From positions 1 through 45,490 of IMG/VR virus record IMGVR_UViG_3300045738_002462: DNA of 45,490 bases; one strand, written 5' to 3'. The position numbers and the translations under genes were made by a program. This document shows, piece after piece, positions 34,191-45,490 of this stretch. This DNA is from a virus. Positions within the stretch are counted from its first letter, which is position 1. Each line of letters starts with the position of its first letter. The notes under the pieces are model-generated. The model was given only the letters and a program-made list of their open reading frames with translations. It had not been told where the DNA came from and searched no databases.

Positions 34191-34610
34191 TTAAGCTGAT
34201 TGCGCCTCGAGCTGGGCCAGCCGCGCCCGAAGCTCTGCCATTTCCTGTTCCGGGCTCACCTGCCCGCGCTGGCAATACAACTGCCGCGCCTTGCGCATGA
34301 CTTGGTACTGGCTGATTGCGTTGTTGCCGGCCAGGGCCTCGATCTCCGCCACCATGTCCATATCCAGATGCCGCACCCGGGCGCCCCGCTTGGCGTGATG
34401 GTCTGCGTTCATGAGCGTGTTCAGGGTTCCTACTGACATGCCCAGCAGATCAGCCCATGAGCGCTGGTCGCGCTTCACACGGGATTGCTGAAGGCACAGC
34501 CGGAGGGCCTGGGACCAGTGCGAGCAGCCCGCTATGGCGACCGGATCAACGTCCCGCGTCTCGGTGTCGATGGCGCCCATCAGGGGCATTGTTCGCTGCG
34601 TTTCGCTCAT
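34191..34610 (-). CDS. CII-like regulator (CP76 type)
   Basis: 139 residues with helix-turn-helix SWADLLGMSVGTLNTLMNADHHAKRGARVRHLDMDMVAEIEALAGNNAISQYQVM, which matches the phage regulatory CII/CP76 family, and a C-terminal coiled coil (PEQEMAELRARLAQLEAQ). It is the second gene of the PR operon and may activate lysogeny promoters. The ATG at 34610 is chosen; the longer reading crosses the tR1-like terminator and cro. The identity of its promoters is not visible. Confidence 0.7.
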   Translation of the reverse strand: MSETQRTMPLMGAIDTETRDVDPVAIAGCSHWSQALRLCLQQSRVKRDQRSWADLLGMSVGTLNTLMNADHHAKRGARVRHLDMDMVAEIEALAGNNAISQYQVMRKARQLYCQRGQVSPEQEMAELRARLAQLEAQSA

Positions 34611-34636
34611 GTTCGCTCTCTCACTCCAAGCCAAAT

Positions 34637-34675
34637 AAAAAGCGCCCCGGTCAGGCAGCGCGTGATCCGGGGCGC
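34637..34675 (-). terminator. tR1-like terminator between cro and cII-like genes
   Basis: GCGCCCCGG (34642-34650) and CCGGGGCGC (34667-34675) form a perfect 9-bp stem, with five T next on the minus strand. The stem begins inside the last codons of cro. Lambda has tR1 at the same place. Some polymerase must pass it to reach the replication genes. Confidence 0.8.
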
Positions 34676-34881
34676 AATTTCTCGCGCAGTTCGTCGGCGG
34701 TGAATTTGCCGTCCGAGGCTTCGGCCAGCAGGTCGGCGTAGTTCGTTTCGCCGGTGTAATCGGTCCTGGGGAGGGAGCCGCTATCCAGCCACTTGTACAT
34801 GGCGCGAGGGCTGATCCCGCAGATTTTGGAGGCCGCCTTGACGCCACCTACCGAGTCGATAACTGATTTGAAGAAGGACAT
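34651..34881 (-). CDS. cro: Cro-like repressor
   Basis: 76 residues with a Cro/YdaS-type helix-turn-helix: SVIDSVGGVKAASKICGISPRAMYKWLDSGSLPRTD. It is the first gene to the left of cI, divergent from it, with 79 bp of operator DNA between. The ATG is at 34881 with AAGAAGGAC ahead only in the opposite sense; the ribosome site is weak (GGAAC). It should bind the same operators as CI and favour the lytic pathway. Confidence 0.8.
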   Translation of the reverse strand: MSFFKSVIDSVGGVKAASKICGISPRAMYKWLDSGSLPRTDYTGETNYADLLAEASDGKFTADELREKLRPGSRAA

Positions 34882-34896: not shown

Positions 34897-34969
34897 ATGT
34901 ACTTTCGGTACATCTTATAACGGAACTGAAAGTACATTCAAGAAGAAAGATAATGTACCTATGGTTCAT
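34897..34969. promoter_or_regulatory. immunity operators and PR/PRM promoters
   Basis: Three 17-bp sites: ATGTACTTTCGGTACAT (34897-34913, palindromic), CGGAACTGAAAGTACAT (34921-34937, a variant of it in the reverse direction), and ATGTACCTATGGTTCAT (34953-34969, overlapping the cI start). Leftward promoter for cro on the minus strand: TTGAAT (34936-34941), 16 bp, TATAAG (34914-34919). Rightward promoter for cI: CTGAAA (34926-34931), 17 bp, GATAAT (34949-34954). The cI start codon is about 7 bp after that -10, so the cI message may be leaderless, as from lambda PRM. Confidence 0.75.
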
Positions 34970-35659
34970 GCTGAAGAAGTACGAAAACGGTTCTCCGCGC
35001 GCCTGCGCCGCGCCACCGCAAACGAGGGGTGGCCGGAGCGGGGCGCGGGCGCTCGCCTTGCCAAGCTGGCCGGCGCCACCCCGAAGGCCGCGAGCAAATG
35101 GCTCAACGGCGAGGCCATGCCGCGCCAGGAAAAGTTGGGCGTCATAGCAAAGGCGTTACGGGTCAGCCAGCAGTGGCTCCAATATGGCGAGGGCTCCATG
35201 GCGGCTGGTGTCGCCGAGGAGTTGGAGCCATGGGGCGATGACGTGGCGCCGGGGCCGGCCAACCACGGCAGCATCCCAATCATCAGCTATGTTCAAGCCG
35301 GCGAGTTCTGCGAAGCGGAAGATCCATTCGAGCCAGGCATGGCCGACGAATGGTTGTCGTTCCGCCCGCCTGGGGCCGGACCTCGCACCTATGCCCTGCG
35401 CGTCGATGGCGAAAGCAACTTTCCTCGCATCCGCAGCGGCGAGATCGTCATTGTCGACCCTGACCGGACGCCGGATAGCGGCAAATTCGTGGTAGCGAAA
35501 CGCCACAGCGATGCCAAGGTCACGCTTAAGATGATCCAGTACAACGAGGGCGAGCCGTTCTTGAAGCCCGGCAACCCGGACTGGCCGGAGCCAATCATCA
35601 AGATAGACGGCGACTGGAGCGTCTGCGGCGTGGTGATCGGCAAGTACGACCCGATGTAA
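34961..35659 (+). CDS. CI repressor (XRE helix-turn-helix + S24 peptidase)
   Basis: 232 residues. DNA-binding domain at about 28-72 (GARLAKLAGATPKAASKWLNGEAMPRQEKLGVIAKALRVSQQWL). LexA/S24 domain with cleavage site A113-G114 (VQAGE), catalytic S152 (DGESNF) and K190 (VTLKMI), so it should self-cleave in the SOS response. ATG at 34961 lies next to its promoter with no good ribosome site, fitting leaderless translation. It is the main prophage repressor and the presumed target of the antirepressor at 10659. The longer upstream reading is across the operators and not used. Confidence 0.9.
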   Translation: MVHAEEVRKRFSARLRRATANEGWPERGAGARLAKLAGATPKAASKWLNGEAMPRQEKLGVIAKALRVSQQWLQYGEGSMAAGVAEELEPWGDDVAPGPANHGSIPIISYVQAGEFCEAEDPFEPGMADEWLSFRPPGAGPRTYALRVDGESNFPRIRSGEIVIVDPDRTPDSGKFVVAKRHSDAKVTLKMIQYNEGEPFLKPGNPDWPEPIIKIDGDWSVCGVVIGKYDPM

Positions 35660-35681: not shown

Positions 35682-36032
35682 ATGGAGGACGACGAATACC
35701 CTGTCGACGGACCTGACTTCATAGAAGCACAGCACCCAATTGACGTCATGGTGACCATCTGTGAGTTTGCGGGAGGGCAGCCCACTTGTACAGTTTGCGG
35801 CAGCAAGAACCACCAAGTGTTGCCGCACCCGCAAAAAGAGGTGAGCACGGCGGTCTTTGAAAAGCCCGTTTATAGCACCCAAAAGTCTCTTCTTACTGTC
35901 GGGATGACGTGCATTAACTGCGGGTCGGTCACGTATTTCCGACTGGCCCCAATCATTGAAAAATTAAAAGAGATCCGGCCCGCACTGGATGAGGCCTGGA
36001 CGACCCACAAGGGAAGGGAGGGGGAGTCATGA
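35682..36032 (+). CDS. zinc-ribbon-like protein, rexA position
   Basis: 116 residues, not recognised. Two CxxC pairs (CTVCGSKNHQ and CINCG), spaced by about 40 residues, look like a zinc ribbon. Start 22 bases after cI with AGGAGGGG upstream. It is the first gene after cI and co-transcribed with it, so it is expressed in the lysogen. In lambda the gene here is rexA (phage exclusion). No sequence similarity to RexA is claimed. Confidence 0.65.
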   Translation: MEDDEYPVDGPDFIEAQHPIDVMVTICEFAGGQPTCTVCGSKNHQVLPHPQKEVSTAVFEKPVYSTQKSLLTVGMTCINCGSVTYFRLAPIIEKLKEIRPALDEAWTTHKGREGES

Positions 36033-36355
36033 GCGAAATAAGCCTGCTGGATGATTACCGGGAGCGACGCATTGAAGGAAAGACCCAAAACCCCCATGAT
36101 AAGGGAAACGGATCTGGAGGCCCTGGAGGGCCCGGCGATATGGAATCCCGACTCGCGAAACTTGAAGCCCACGCTGAGCACATGCAAACCGGCATAGGCG
36201 AGATCAAGGGCGACCTCAACGACGTCTCCAAAGACGTTCAGGCGATCCGTGTCCGCCTTGCCTGGGGCTCTGGAGCGGCCGCCGTCATTATCGGTCTGCT
36301 GGCATGGCTCGCCAACAACCGCTTTGACCAAGTCGTTGAAATGATCACCAAGTAA
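36029..36355 (+). CDS. coiled-coil membrane protein, rexB position
   Basis: 108 residues. Gly-rich linker (NGSGGPGGPGD), a charged helix (MESRLAKLEAHAEHMQTGIGEIKGDLNDVSKDVQAIR), and one C-terminal membrane segment (GAAAVIIGLLAWLA). It is coupled to the zinc-ribbon gene (ATGA) and ends before a strong terminator. Its place, after cI and before PL, is that of rexB, whose product is also a membrane protein. A two-part exclusion function is inferred from position and topology only. Confidence 0.65.
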   Translation: MSEISLLDDYRERRIEGKTQNPHDKGNGSGGPGGPGDMESRLAKLEAHAEHMQTGIGEIKGDLNDVSKDVQAIRVRLAWGSGAAAVIIGLLAWLANNRFDQVVEMITK

Positions 36356-36376
36356 CCGCCACCCCGCCCCACCAAG

Positions 36377-36400
36377 AGCCCGCCCAGCGCGGGCTTTTTT
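36377..36400 (+). terminator. terminator of the cI operon
   Basis: AGCCCGC (36377-36383) and GCGGGCT (36388-36394), loop CCAGC, six T on the plus strand. It isolates the lysogenic operon from the PL promoter 80 bases downstream. Confidence 0.85.
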
Positions 36401-36462: not shown

Positions 36463-36506
36463 ATGTACTTTTGGTTCTTGACTAGTGTACTTACGGTTCA
36501 TATTCT
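36463..36506 (+). promoter_or_regulatory. PL-like promoter with two CI operators
   Basis: Operators ATGTACTTTTGGTTCTT (36463-36479) and GTGTACTTACGGTTCAT (36485-36501), 22 bp apart, share the motif of the cro/cI operators. Promoter: TTGACT (36478-36483), 17 bp, TATTCT (36501-36506). The second operator fills the spacer, so bound CI would shut it. It drives the long plus-strand operon to 45490. Confidence 0.75.
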
Positions 36507-36544: not shown

Positions 36545-37003
36545 ATGAACGCACATCAAGCCGCGAGCGATTGGGACTACCAGGATGCACTCCATCCGCA
36601 GCGTGCCGCCTACGACGCATGGTGCGAGGCGTATCTGGTCGAGGCGCTGAAGTCGGACGAGATCGAGACCGCGTTCAGCGCCCAGGATCGCCTGGAATCC
36701 GAGTTCGACGCGCTGGTGCTGTTCCTGGCCTTCGGCGCCGCCGAGTTCCGCCCGCTGTGCCTGAGCGAGTTCCGCCGGCAGACGTTCGGCATGAGCCGGG
36801 ACCAACTGCAGGACGCGCTGGCCGACGGCGAGATCGATCCGGTGGAGATTGTGCGCCTCGCGGTGTTCGCCGGTGACGACGCTCGCCGGACCTGGGCGCC
36901 GCATGTTCGGCAGGCCATGGACGGCTTCCACGACGCCGTGATGAAGGCCGCGCCGACCTGGGGCTGGGTGGAGACGATTTTTGAGCGGAGGAATGAGCCG
37001 TGA
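36545..37003 (+). CDS. hypothetical protein, first gene of the PL operon
   Basis: 152 residues, acidic, Trp-rich, not recognised (WDYQDALHPQRAAYDAWCEAYLVEALKSDEIETAF; RQTFGMSRDQLQDALADGEIDPVEIVRLAVF). A ribosome site GGGGAGCG precedes the ATG. The stop overlaps the next start as TGATG. In lambda the first gene from PL encodes the antiterminator N; nothing here (no Arg-rich helix) supports N, so the function stays open. Confidence 0.7.
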   Translation: MNAHQAASDWDYQDALHPQRAAYDAWCEAYLVEALKSDEIETAFSAQDRLESEFDALVLFLAFGAAEFRPLCLSEFRRQTFGMSRDQLQDALADGEIDPVEIVRLAVFAGDDARRTWAPHVRQAMDGFHDAVMKAAPTWGWVETIFERRNEP

Positions 37004-44186: not shown

Positions 44187-44399
44187 ATGCTCCAGCGAGA
44201 ACTGATCAACATCACCGAGTTCCAGCGGCGGGTCTGGGGTGAGAACGGCACCCCGCTCACCGCCCAGGCGATCCGAAACCAGCTCAAGCGCGGCGATCTG
44301 CCAGGACAGCAGATGGGCAAGCTGTGGTTTGTGGACTGGACGGCGTACCAGCGCCAGACTGGCGACAAACTGGTCGATGCGGTACTGAGGGCGGGATAA
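44187..44399 (+). CDS. excisionase-like (AlpA/Xis) DNA-binding protein
   Basis: 70 residues, winged-helix excisionase form: LINITEFQRRVWGENGTPLTAQAIRNQLKRGDLPGQQMGKLWFVDWTAY. It is directly coupled to the integrase gene (TAATG) and should bend attachment-site DNA to direct excision. The ATG at 44187 has GGAGGCTGAA just ahead. Confidence 0.75.
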   Translation: MLQRELINITEFQRRVWGENGTPLTAQAIRNQLKRGDLPGQQMGKLWFVDWTAYQRQTGDKLVDAVLRAG

Positions 44400-45490
44400 T
44401 GGCACCAAGGCCCAGGAAGAAGCGAAACAGCGGATTGCCGCCAAACCTCTATGCGAACGGGCGGGCGTTCAAATACCGCCGGCCAGACAACGGCACGTGG
44501 CACGGCATGGGCACCGACAAGGCCAAGGCCATCGCGGCGGCAAGCCAGCTCAACGGGCTACTGATGGCCGGCGGCGACCTGGTGGCGGACGTAATGGGCG
44601 ACTCCATGAGCCTGAATGCGTTCCTCGACTACTACGAGGCCGAGGTGTTGCCGCCCCGGGAACTGGCCCGGGCCACACTGGATCTGTACGCCGTGCGCTT
44701 CCGTCAGATTCGGGCGGCGCTGGGCGAGCGTGACATCGGGCAGATCACCATCGGCATGGTCGCGGCGTTCCTCGACAGCCTGACGCCCCGGGCGTCGAAT
44801 CAGGCGCGAGCGATCCTGGTGGATGTGTTCAACCATGCGGCCGCCAAGGGCTTGGTGGCCGACAACCCCGCCGAGGCGACGATACCCAGGCCCGAGAAGA
44901 AGGCGCGCCGCCGACATACCGTGGCCGGTGTCCAGGCTATCTACGCCGTGGCGGAGCCCTGGCTGCAGAATGCCATCGATCTGGCCCTGCTCACCGCCCA
45001 GCGGCGCGAGGACATCCTGGCGATGCGATTCGATGACATCCGTGACGGCGCCCTTCATGTGGCTCAACACAAGACGCGGCGTGCCAGTGATGCCGGCTGG
45101 ATCAGGTTGCCGATGACTCCGCAGCTCAAAGCCCTGGTGGCCCGTTGCCGGGATGACGTGCCCTCCCCGTTCCTGGTCCACCGGAAGCCGGAGCGGCGGG
45201 TGGCGAGCGGCCGGCACTGGACCCAGGTGGATAACCGTTATCTGACTCGGGCGTTCAAAGCGGCCAGGGACGCCGCCAACCCCTATCCGCACTGGTCACC
45301 AGAGCAGCAGCCGGGCTTTCATGAGCTGCGCGCCCTGAGCCTGCACCTGTACAAGAAGGCCGGTAAAGATGGGCAAAAGCTGGCCGGGCACAGCACCCGT
45401 AAGATGACGAAGAATTACGAAGCGGATCACGAAGAAGTGGTCTGGACCGAGGCCGTGGCTGACCTGGATTTGAGCAAAATCACGGGCTGA
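44399..45490 (+). CDS. int: phage integrase, tyrosine recombinase
   Basis: 363 residues, complete. N-terminal arm-binding part (about 1-60), core-binding domain (about 70-160, SLNAFLDYYEAEVLPPRELARATLDLYAVRF), then the catalytic domain: R202 (AQRREDIL), K225, H308 and R311 (HELRAL), H331 (GHSTRKM), nucleophile Y340 (TKNYEADHEE). It should join attP to the tRNA-Pro core at 961-1008. The stop is the last base of the window. Its 3' end is repeated as a relic at 479-870. Confidence 0.9.
   Translation: MAPRPRKKRNSGLPPNLYANGRAFKYRRPDNGTWHGMGTDKAKAIAAASQLNGLLMAGGDLVADVMGDSMSLNAFLDYYEAEVLPPRELARATLDLYAVRFRQIRAALGERDIGQITIGMVAAFLDSLTPRASNQARAILVDVFNHAAAKGLVADNPAEATIPRPEKKARRRHTVAGVQAIYAVAEPWLQNAIDLALLTAQRREDILAMRFDDIRDGALHVAQHKTRRASDAGWIRLPMTPQLKALVARCRDDVPSPFLVHRKPERRVASGRHWTQVDNRYLTRAFKAARDAANPYPHWSPEQQPGFHELRALSLHLYKKAGKDGQKLAGHSTRKMTKNYEADHEEVVWTEAVADLDLSKITG

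Follow-up and report, generated by a model that had tools for sequence, protein, structure and literature searches.

The window analyzed here is a whole virus record of 45,490 bp. On its + strand, an OR/PRM-like promoter region is followed in order by cI, two small genes (here termed A and B), a hairpin, an OL/pL region and the early genes, which begin at position 36545. The OR region contains three CI-operator-like sites recognized by their sequence motif (34898-34912, 34922-34936 and 34954-34968), and a PRM-like promoter (34926-34954) overlaps this region (34898-34968). The cI gene (34961-35659, + strand) encodes an HTH and S24 repressor (Peptidase_S24, 5e-18; phrog_4, transcriptional repressor, 1.5e-44), with the ATG at 34961 as its putative start codon. 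Since the −10 element of the PRM-like promoter ends 7 bp before this ATG, a cI-A-B transcript would begin almost at the cI start codon. Gene A (35682-36032, + strand; 116 aa) starts 22 bp past the cI stop codon and is preceded by a strong ribosome-binding site, AGGAGGGG. Gene B (36029-36355, + strand; 108 aa) overlaps the end of gene A by 4 bp (ATGA). The cI-A-B unit is closed by a rho-independent-terminator-like hairpin (36374-36398, + strand) with a 10-bp stem and a U run (z = −3.4), and its GCCCGCCCAGCGCGGGC-T6 sequence was also found before OL in relatives. Two further CI-operator-like sites at OL (36464-36478 and 36486-36500, + strand) overlap a pL-like promoter (36478-36506, + strand). 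The first early gene after pL (36545-37003, + strand; 152 aa) is conserved in the phage group and bounds the cargo slot on its right side; Pfam, PHROGs and NCBIfam scans gave no confident family for it.

Exact or near-exact operator-like sites were found in the window only beside cI and at pL. With a relaxed motif, 10 matches were obtained against 3.1 expected, a number reached in 0 of 100 shuffles. No promoter-like site was found on the + strand between cI and B, and both genes are therefore expected on the cI transcript; being read from it, they would be made while the prophage is dormant. The preliminary description had placed a translationally coupled, lysogen-expressed pair in the rexA-rexB position, after cI and ending at a terminator before pL. 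The coordinates given there for the pair are exact, the coupling is borne out by the ATGA overlap, and the cI-A-B-OL/pL order, together with E. coli relatives of B in the exact CI-N slot (see below), confirms the position; expression in the lysogen is likewise what the promoter search would predict. Left of cI, the − strand carries cro-like and replication-type genes. A cro-like gene (34651-34881) and then a regulator-like ORF occupy 34191-34881 on this strand, which corresponds to the cro/cII position of a PR operon. At the other end of the window, the last + strand ORF (44324-45490) has its stop codon at the record end (45490), as if the record had been trimmed at a prophage end.

The product of gene A carries four cysteines at residues 36/39 and 77/80 (35787-35921) in the spacing CxxC-37-CxxC. 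When 11 divergent relatives of A were aligned, these four cysteines and the start methionine were the only invariant residues. The AlphaFold model is confident (pLDDT 86) and places beta strands around the cysteine pairs. Foldseek, run on PDB entries up to April 2026, gave no match with E <= 0.001, and the 50 PDB matches listed consist of generic zinc ribbons, weak NrdR/RPB9-type ribbons included, and chance matches. The invariant cysteine pairs and the model support the earlier view of A as zinc-ribbon-like: by its two CxxC knuckles on a beta-ribbon scaffold it falls in the zinc-ribbon fold group, and it would presumably bind zinc. In the viral-model Foldseek search the second-best match was A0A0H5ARH7, whose 87 residues equal the length of gp27 of Pseudomonas phage PS-1, and the two were equated by length only.

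The product of gene B can be divided into an N-terminal polar tail (residues 1-29; 36029-36115, + strand), a GGPGGPGD linker (36116-36139, + strand) and a module predicted to combine a coiled coil with a single membrane helix (36140-36355, + strand; helix at about 36257-36313). The coiled coil, also proposed before, is called from the sequence; for B as a whole, AlphaFold confidence is low (pLDDT 52). The hydropathy profile peaks in one hydrophobic segment, at residues 77-95. The preliminary description had likened B to RexB as a membrane protein; the hydrophobic helix upholds the membrane part of this comparison, whereas its single occurrence sets B apart from multi-pass proteins of the RexB type, and no match to RexB was obtained. 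The membrane module of B is similar to modules at two of the loci described below (L124 and L137). Neither A nor B belongs to a Pfam, NCBIfam or PADLOC family. Among the PHROGs, A matches phrog 4293 (2.4e-5) and B matches 3556 (2.7e-10) and 6136 (8.4e-9), all families without known function and with no pairing recorded; these PHROGs also match relatives of the two proteins, and for A and B themselves the strength of the match is weak to moderate. PADLOC models (2023) gave only weak coiled-coil noise, and no true match, with the relatives of A and B.

Direct tblastn searches with A and B of the window against 50,697 phage records yielded nothing convincing, and scans of viral contigs with either protein as a single query found nothing, because the versions of the window are very divergent. 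The cI gene was therefore used as bait; it retrieved 77 loci and opened the family (loci are given L numbers here). A pair of the same design lies between cI and the first early gene in L004, L005, L006, L008, L010, L012/L013 and L016. Compared with the window, L004 and L005 encode CI proteins that are 97-98% identical, but their A proteins are only 16-24% and their B proteins 26-37% identical. This indicates that the cargo is exchanged beneath a nearly unchanged repressor, and to judge from these identities the turnover of A and B may be as strong as that of arms-race genes. Other members of the same phage group carry other cargo, namely a 189-aa exported-type protein (L014/L015) or a membrane-type protein (L009/L014).

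The preliminary description had regarded genes that never co-occur elsewhere as evidence against its proposal; the pair was instead found to recur behind numerous unrelated cI genes. In no fewer than twelve unrelated loci of phages or prophages, an S24-type repressor gene is followed by an A/B pair, and these pairs are highly divergent. Searches seeded with relatives of B detected pairs behind unrelated repressors in L087, L088/L093 (Pseudomonas neustonica), L089, L101, L103, L105, L106 and L107, and the S24 repressor was confirmed in L089, L093, L101, L103, L106 and L107. Pseudomonas phage PS-1 has the order CI-A-B as gp28-gp27-gp26, and the pair is also present in Enterobacter phage ENT1. 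In the E. coli PK5 and E2348/69 prophages, the partner and B occupy exactly the CI-to-N slot, that is, the rexAB slot, and the order CI-partner-B is kept in E. coli 88COLEC. A and B lie downstream of Arc/antirepressor genes in Salmonella phages SPN3UB and S107, and in E. coli 266917_2 the pair follows an Arc-family gene, between a DNA-transfer protein gene and an antirepressor/tailspike region, which corresponds to the neighbourhood of sieA in P22. The protein in the partner slot varies: in E. coli prophages it is a 136-145 aa protein without the cysteine motif, and several loci from Pseudomonas encode there a protein of about 95 aa that looks helical. Examples of B with a helical-looking partner of about 70-125 aa in the place of A, behind cI or in prophage-like loci, are L111:1182-1451, L113:962-1441, L115:1154-1357, L119:1143-1448 and L123:1098-1469.

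A B-like gene was present in 70 of the 398 Pseudomonadaceae genomes sampled. In the non-redundant set of 41 B-like genes, which takes in loci found through CI, 24 sit behind a CI-like gene (same strand, within 1.5 kb), and 18 of these 24 have a CxxC..CxxC partner; three more have such a partner without CI, and 14 have neither. A genome search with B only gave 29 loci (L110-L138), 11 of them behind CI; a zinc-ribbon partner was found in eight, five of which are behind CI. Most of the 14 genes with neither CI nor partner represent one chromosomal gene of Pseudomonas beside what is presumably pcp (pyrrolidone-carboxylate peptidase). This stand-alone homologue of the coiled-coil/membrane module, present in many Pseudomonas genomes (L121, L122, L125-L128, L130, L131 and L133-L136) is either a host gene or a domesticated relic.

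Several neighbouring genes were noted at these loci. L115:694-1044, directly behind a prophage cI, presumably encodes a CsrA-like protein. The gene directly behind cI in Pseudomonas phage phi1 (L142:1311-1961) is annotated as NAD-dependent DNA ligase and encodes a protein with a BRCT domain; an unannotated homologue of B is found further downstream (2393-2740). The annotated start of the B homologue in Klebsiella phage ST101-KPC2phi6.1 (L148:2541-2846) is too far downstream, as the frame continues upstream and takes in both a tail and a GGGGGGG linker. In L137, a 282-aa protein with hydrophobic segments is encoded directly upstream of the A-B pair and opposite a phage tail gene (225-1073, reverse complement). 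It had no Pfam match, and its consideration as a SieB-like protein was confirmed by neither Pfam nor PHROGs.

Comparison of DNA between close relatives gave two classes. In the first, A and the B tail are nearly identical and the membrane half is not: identities for A, tail and membrane half are 99%, 94% and 49% between L005 and L008, and 95%, 99% and 52% between L004 and L006. In the second, the relation is reversed, with 52%, 46% and 100% between L005 and L010, and 51%, 45% and 95% between L005 and L006. The switch point is the glycine-rich linker, so that the tail is co-inherited with A and the linker is the junction at which modules are swapped; its glycine codon repeats could serve as a recombination target. 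Across 23 pairs, similarity in A goes together with similarity in the B tail (r = 0.79; 0 of 5000 permutations), whereas the membrane half shows no such relation (r = 0.08). Removal of near-identical A left 20 pairs, with r = 0.61 for the tail and −0.02 for the membrane half. Over all comparisons run, the correlation between A and tail spans r = 0.61-0.88, and that with the membrane module is about 0. Adjacency by itself could produce the correlation with the tail. That the exchange points keep A and tail together suggests, rather than proves, docking of A on the B tail. The membrane modules of L004 and L107 differ by pS 0.64 and pN 0.06, and three pairs of A genes by 77-84% synonymous against 34-41% non-synonymous differences; as synonymous sites are mostly saturated, these values are taken to mean pN < pS and not an exact ratio. 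Such purifying selection in relatives indicates that A and B are maintained proteins, and together with the recurrence it rules them out as chance ORFs.

The place behind cI was also considered for what else it hosts. At loci whose CI is about 35% identical to that of the window (L018-L080), it holds large genes on the opposite strand. Ten slot proteins, chosen by eye, were tested with PADLOC and nine of the ten gave a match, among them Septu PtuA (two), Lamassu LmuB, AbiC, an NsnA-like and a ThsA/SIR2-like protein and PDC-S21 (two). From locus to locus the genes rotate between Septu, Lamassu, AbiC, SIR2-like, DUF262-like and PDC candidates (for example L045:6473-7882, L060:6486-7760, L024:5788-7617 and L050:5768-6931). 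The slot in these loci looks like a rich defence hotspot. Lysogenic cargo behind cI is not always defence, since secreted proteins and lipoproteins occur in the slot too. As the ten proteins were picked by eye and are encoded on the opposite strand, they bear on the kind of gene that the slot accepts and not on the role of the pair. It was reported previously that the cI-to-n region is a mosaic hotspot and the home of rexAB and bstA (PMC8585504). In L138, a KAP NTPase gene (37-1441; PADLOC PDC-S20, 1.8e-51), which may have a frameshift towards its 3' end, lies directly upstream of a zinc-ribbon A-B pair without CI, and the three genes perhaps constitute one defence unit.

With lambda RexAB, the pair shares the place in the order cI-rexA-rexB-pL, the logic of a same-strand transcript and the combination of a cytoplasmic with a membrane partner. 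The proteins, however, are unlike: A has 116 aa and a zinc-ribbon-like fold, and B combines one membrane helix with a glycine linker and a coiled coil. Neither matched a RexA or RexB family in Pfam, PHROGs, NCBIfam or PADLOC scans, and RexA (8TWQ) is absent among the 50 PDB Foldseek matches listed for A. Homology of A and B to RexA and RexB was therefore rejected, there being no family or fold match. By analogy, the closest tested system is RexABpp of the P. putida prophage P1 (PP_5643-5644), likewise a unit of two genes, one of them for a membrane effector, located downstream of cI (PMC12894663); PP_3897-PP_3898 lie between that cI and RexABpp. RexABpp is a proven defence system that aborts infection and needs both proteins; when the first protein is over-expressed, the second suppresses growth and damages membranes (PMC12894663). 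Unlike the pair, it consists of a DNA-binding RexA homologue and of a RexBpp with four predicted membrane helices, neither of which is seen in A or B (PMC12894663). BstA resembles the pair as a lysogen-expressed defence gene in the slot downstream of cI in diverse Gram-negative prophages, but it consists of one protein only, unrelated to A and B, and has a DNA self-immunity element (PMC8585504).

By a narrow balance of probability, we consider the pair to be a lysogen-expressed two-part superinfection-exclusion module that works as RexAB does, with unrelated proteins. The rexAB-like position, the recurrence, turnover and modularity of the pair, the KAP NTPase neighbour, the defence genes in the slot and the analogy with RexABpp all support exclusion. 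Against it stand the lack of a PADLOC match for A or B and the B-like genes that occur without A, such as the chromosomal gene beside pcp and a weak relative inside a lysis cassette. No phenotype is known for any family member. In the mechanism we propose, A would be a zinc-ribbon protein located in the cytoplasm, where it senses infection, or a product of it, or else restrains or controls B. It would dock on the short N-terminal tail of B, which the glycine-rich linker joins to the exchangeable membrane module. B would be anchored by its one helix in the inner membrane, probably as an oligomer held through the coiled coil, and its output there would most likely be damage or depolarisation, in the manner of holin/XhlA or of RexB, such that an infected lysogen aborts the infection.

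A different kind of exclusion would leave the cell unharmed: B, with A as its regulator, might sit in the inner membrane and stop the DNA of related phages, as the prophage-expressed inner-membrane exclusion protein SieA of P22 does. Exclusion proteins of this kind are typically small and reside in the membrane, one relative of B lies in a sieA-type neighbourhood beside a DNA-transfer protein gene, and the frequent swapping of membrane modules would fit a changing specificity of injection proteins. Family scans of the window proteins (Pfam, PHROGs, NCBIfam and PADLOC) found no SieA-type family. For blocking entry, a zinc-ribbon protein in the cytoplasm would be superfluous, but nearly all prophage copies of B adjoin a coupled partner gene, and we regard entry blocking as unlikely; SieA is sufficient by itself (PMC10883804). 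Still less probable, in our estimate, is a role outside defence, in lysogeny control or host physiology, with the zinc ribbon of A modulating CI, transcription or the induction switch and B tethering A to the membrane. It would be in keeping with the usual closeness of the pair to a repressor gene, and binding to nucleic acid or to RNA polymerase is common among zinc ribbons. RexA is also reported to bias the lambda switch (PMC11077077). The pair, however, is swapped among phages with 97-98% identical CI and moves between repressors that are unrelated, a locus of the Arc family and the operon of a KAP NTPase, and thus has no fixed tie to one CI.

Two small coupled genes, regulator first and membrane effector second, are also the design of a toxin-antitoxin-like maintenance pair, with B as membrane toxin and A as antitoxin. 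Neither protein matched a toxin-antitoxin family in the Pfam, PHROGs, NCBIfam and PADLOC scans, the interval between cI and A has no promoter-like site, and a query with a B relative gave no plasmid copy, so that we think a maintenance pair very unlikely; if A restrains B until infection, it would overlap with the exclusion module proposed above. Finally, the genes might be late lysis-related genes, a holin accessory of the XhlA type, that lie in the immunity region by happenstance. XhlA (PF10779), which comes from PBSX-type lysis cassettes, is like B a small protein in which one membrane helix comes after a coiled coil. Relatives of B from E. coli and Enterobacter score 20.2-24.8 bits against it, below the gathering cut-off of 34.7, and one phage has a weak B relative inside its lysis cassette, between holin and peptidase. 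B of the window, however, gave no match to XhlA (Pfam) at E <= 1, the pair is located in the immunity region behind cI, and no holin or endolysin was seen nearby in the CI-linked loci. A lysis gene was rejected on this location, and we consider such an accessory the least likely of the readings.

The modular build allows a bolder extension of the exclusion model, which we put forward tentatively and would sooner expect to fail than to hold. The pair could be one branch of a plug-in immune platform of prophages in which the type of B is constant and interchangeable docking tails and output modules are connected via the glycine linker, each tail with its own cytoplasmic sensor. The sensors would be the zinc ribbon, the E. 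coli protein of about 140 aa without cysteine motif and the helical Pseudomonas protein of about 95 aa, and phages would reshuffle sensor and output by recombination at the linker.

Few Rex-like systems have been characterised, five by the count of a recent report (PMC12894663). Our literature search, with most subscription journals outside its scope, found no description of the A/B families or of their modular build, so that the earlier remark that the pair is not obviously described holds for the family libraries and papers searched. The pair is Rex-like in kind, as a two-gene unit behind cI that would be expressed in the lysogen; its protein families and modular build appear to be new, and its function would be the exclusion proposed above. 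A compact pair of reshuffled tail-linker-module design occupies this slot in phages of Pseudomonas, of Enterobacter and of E. coli as well as in environmental phages, and its recurrence in unrelated phages suggests a widespread system that guards the host from other viruses. The reshuffled pairs are natural chimeras with which the part that senses infection could be told from the part that acts, and several PHROG families listed as unknown gain a testable function.
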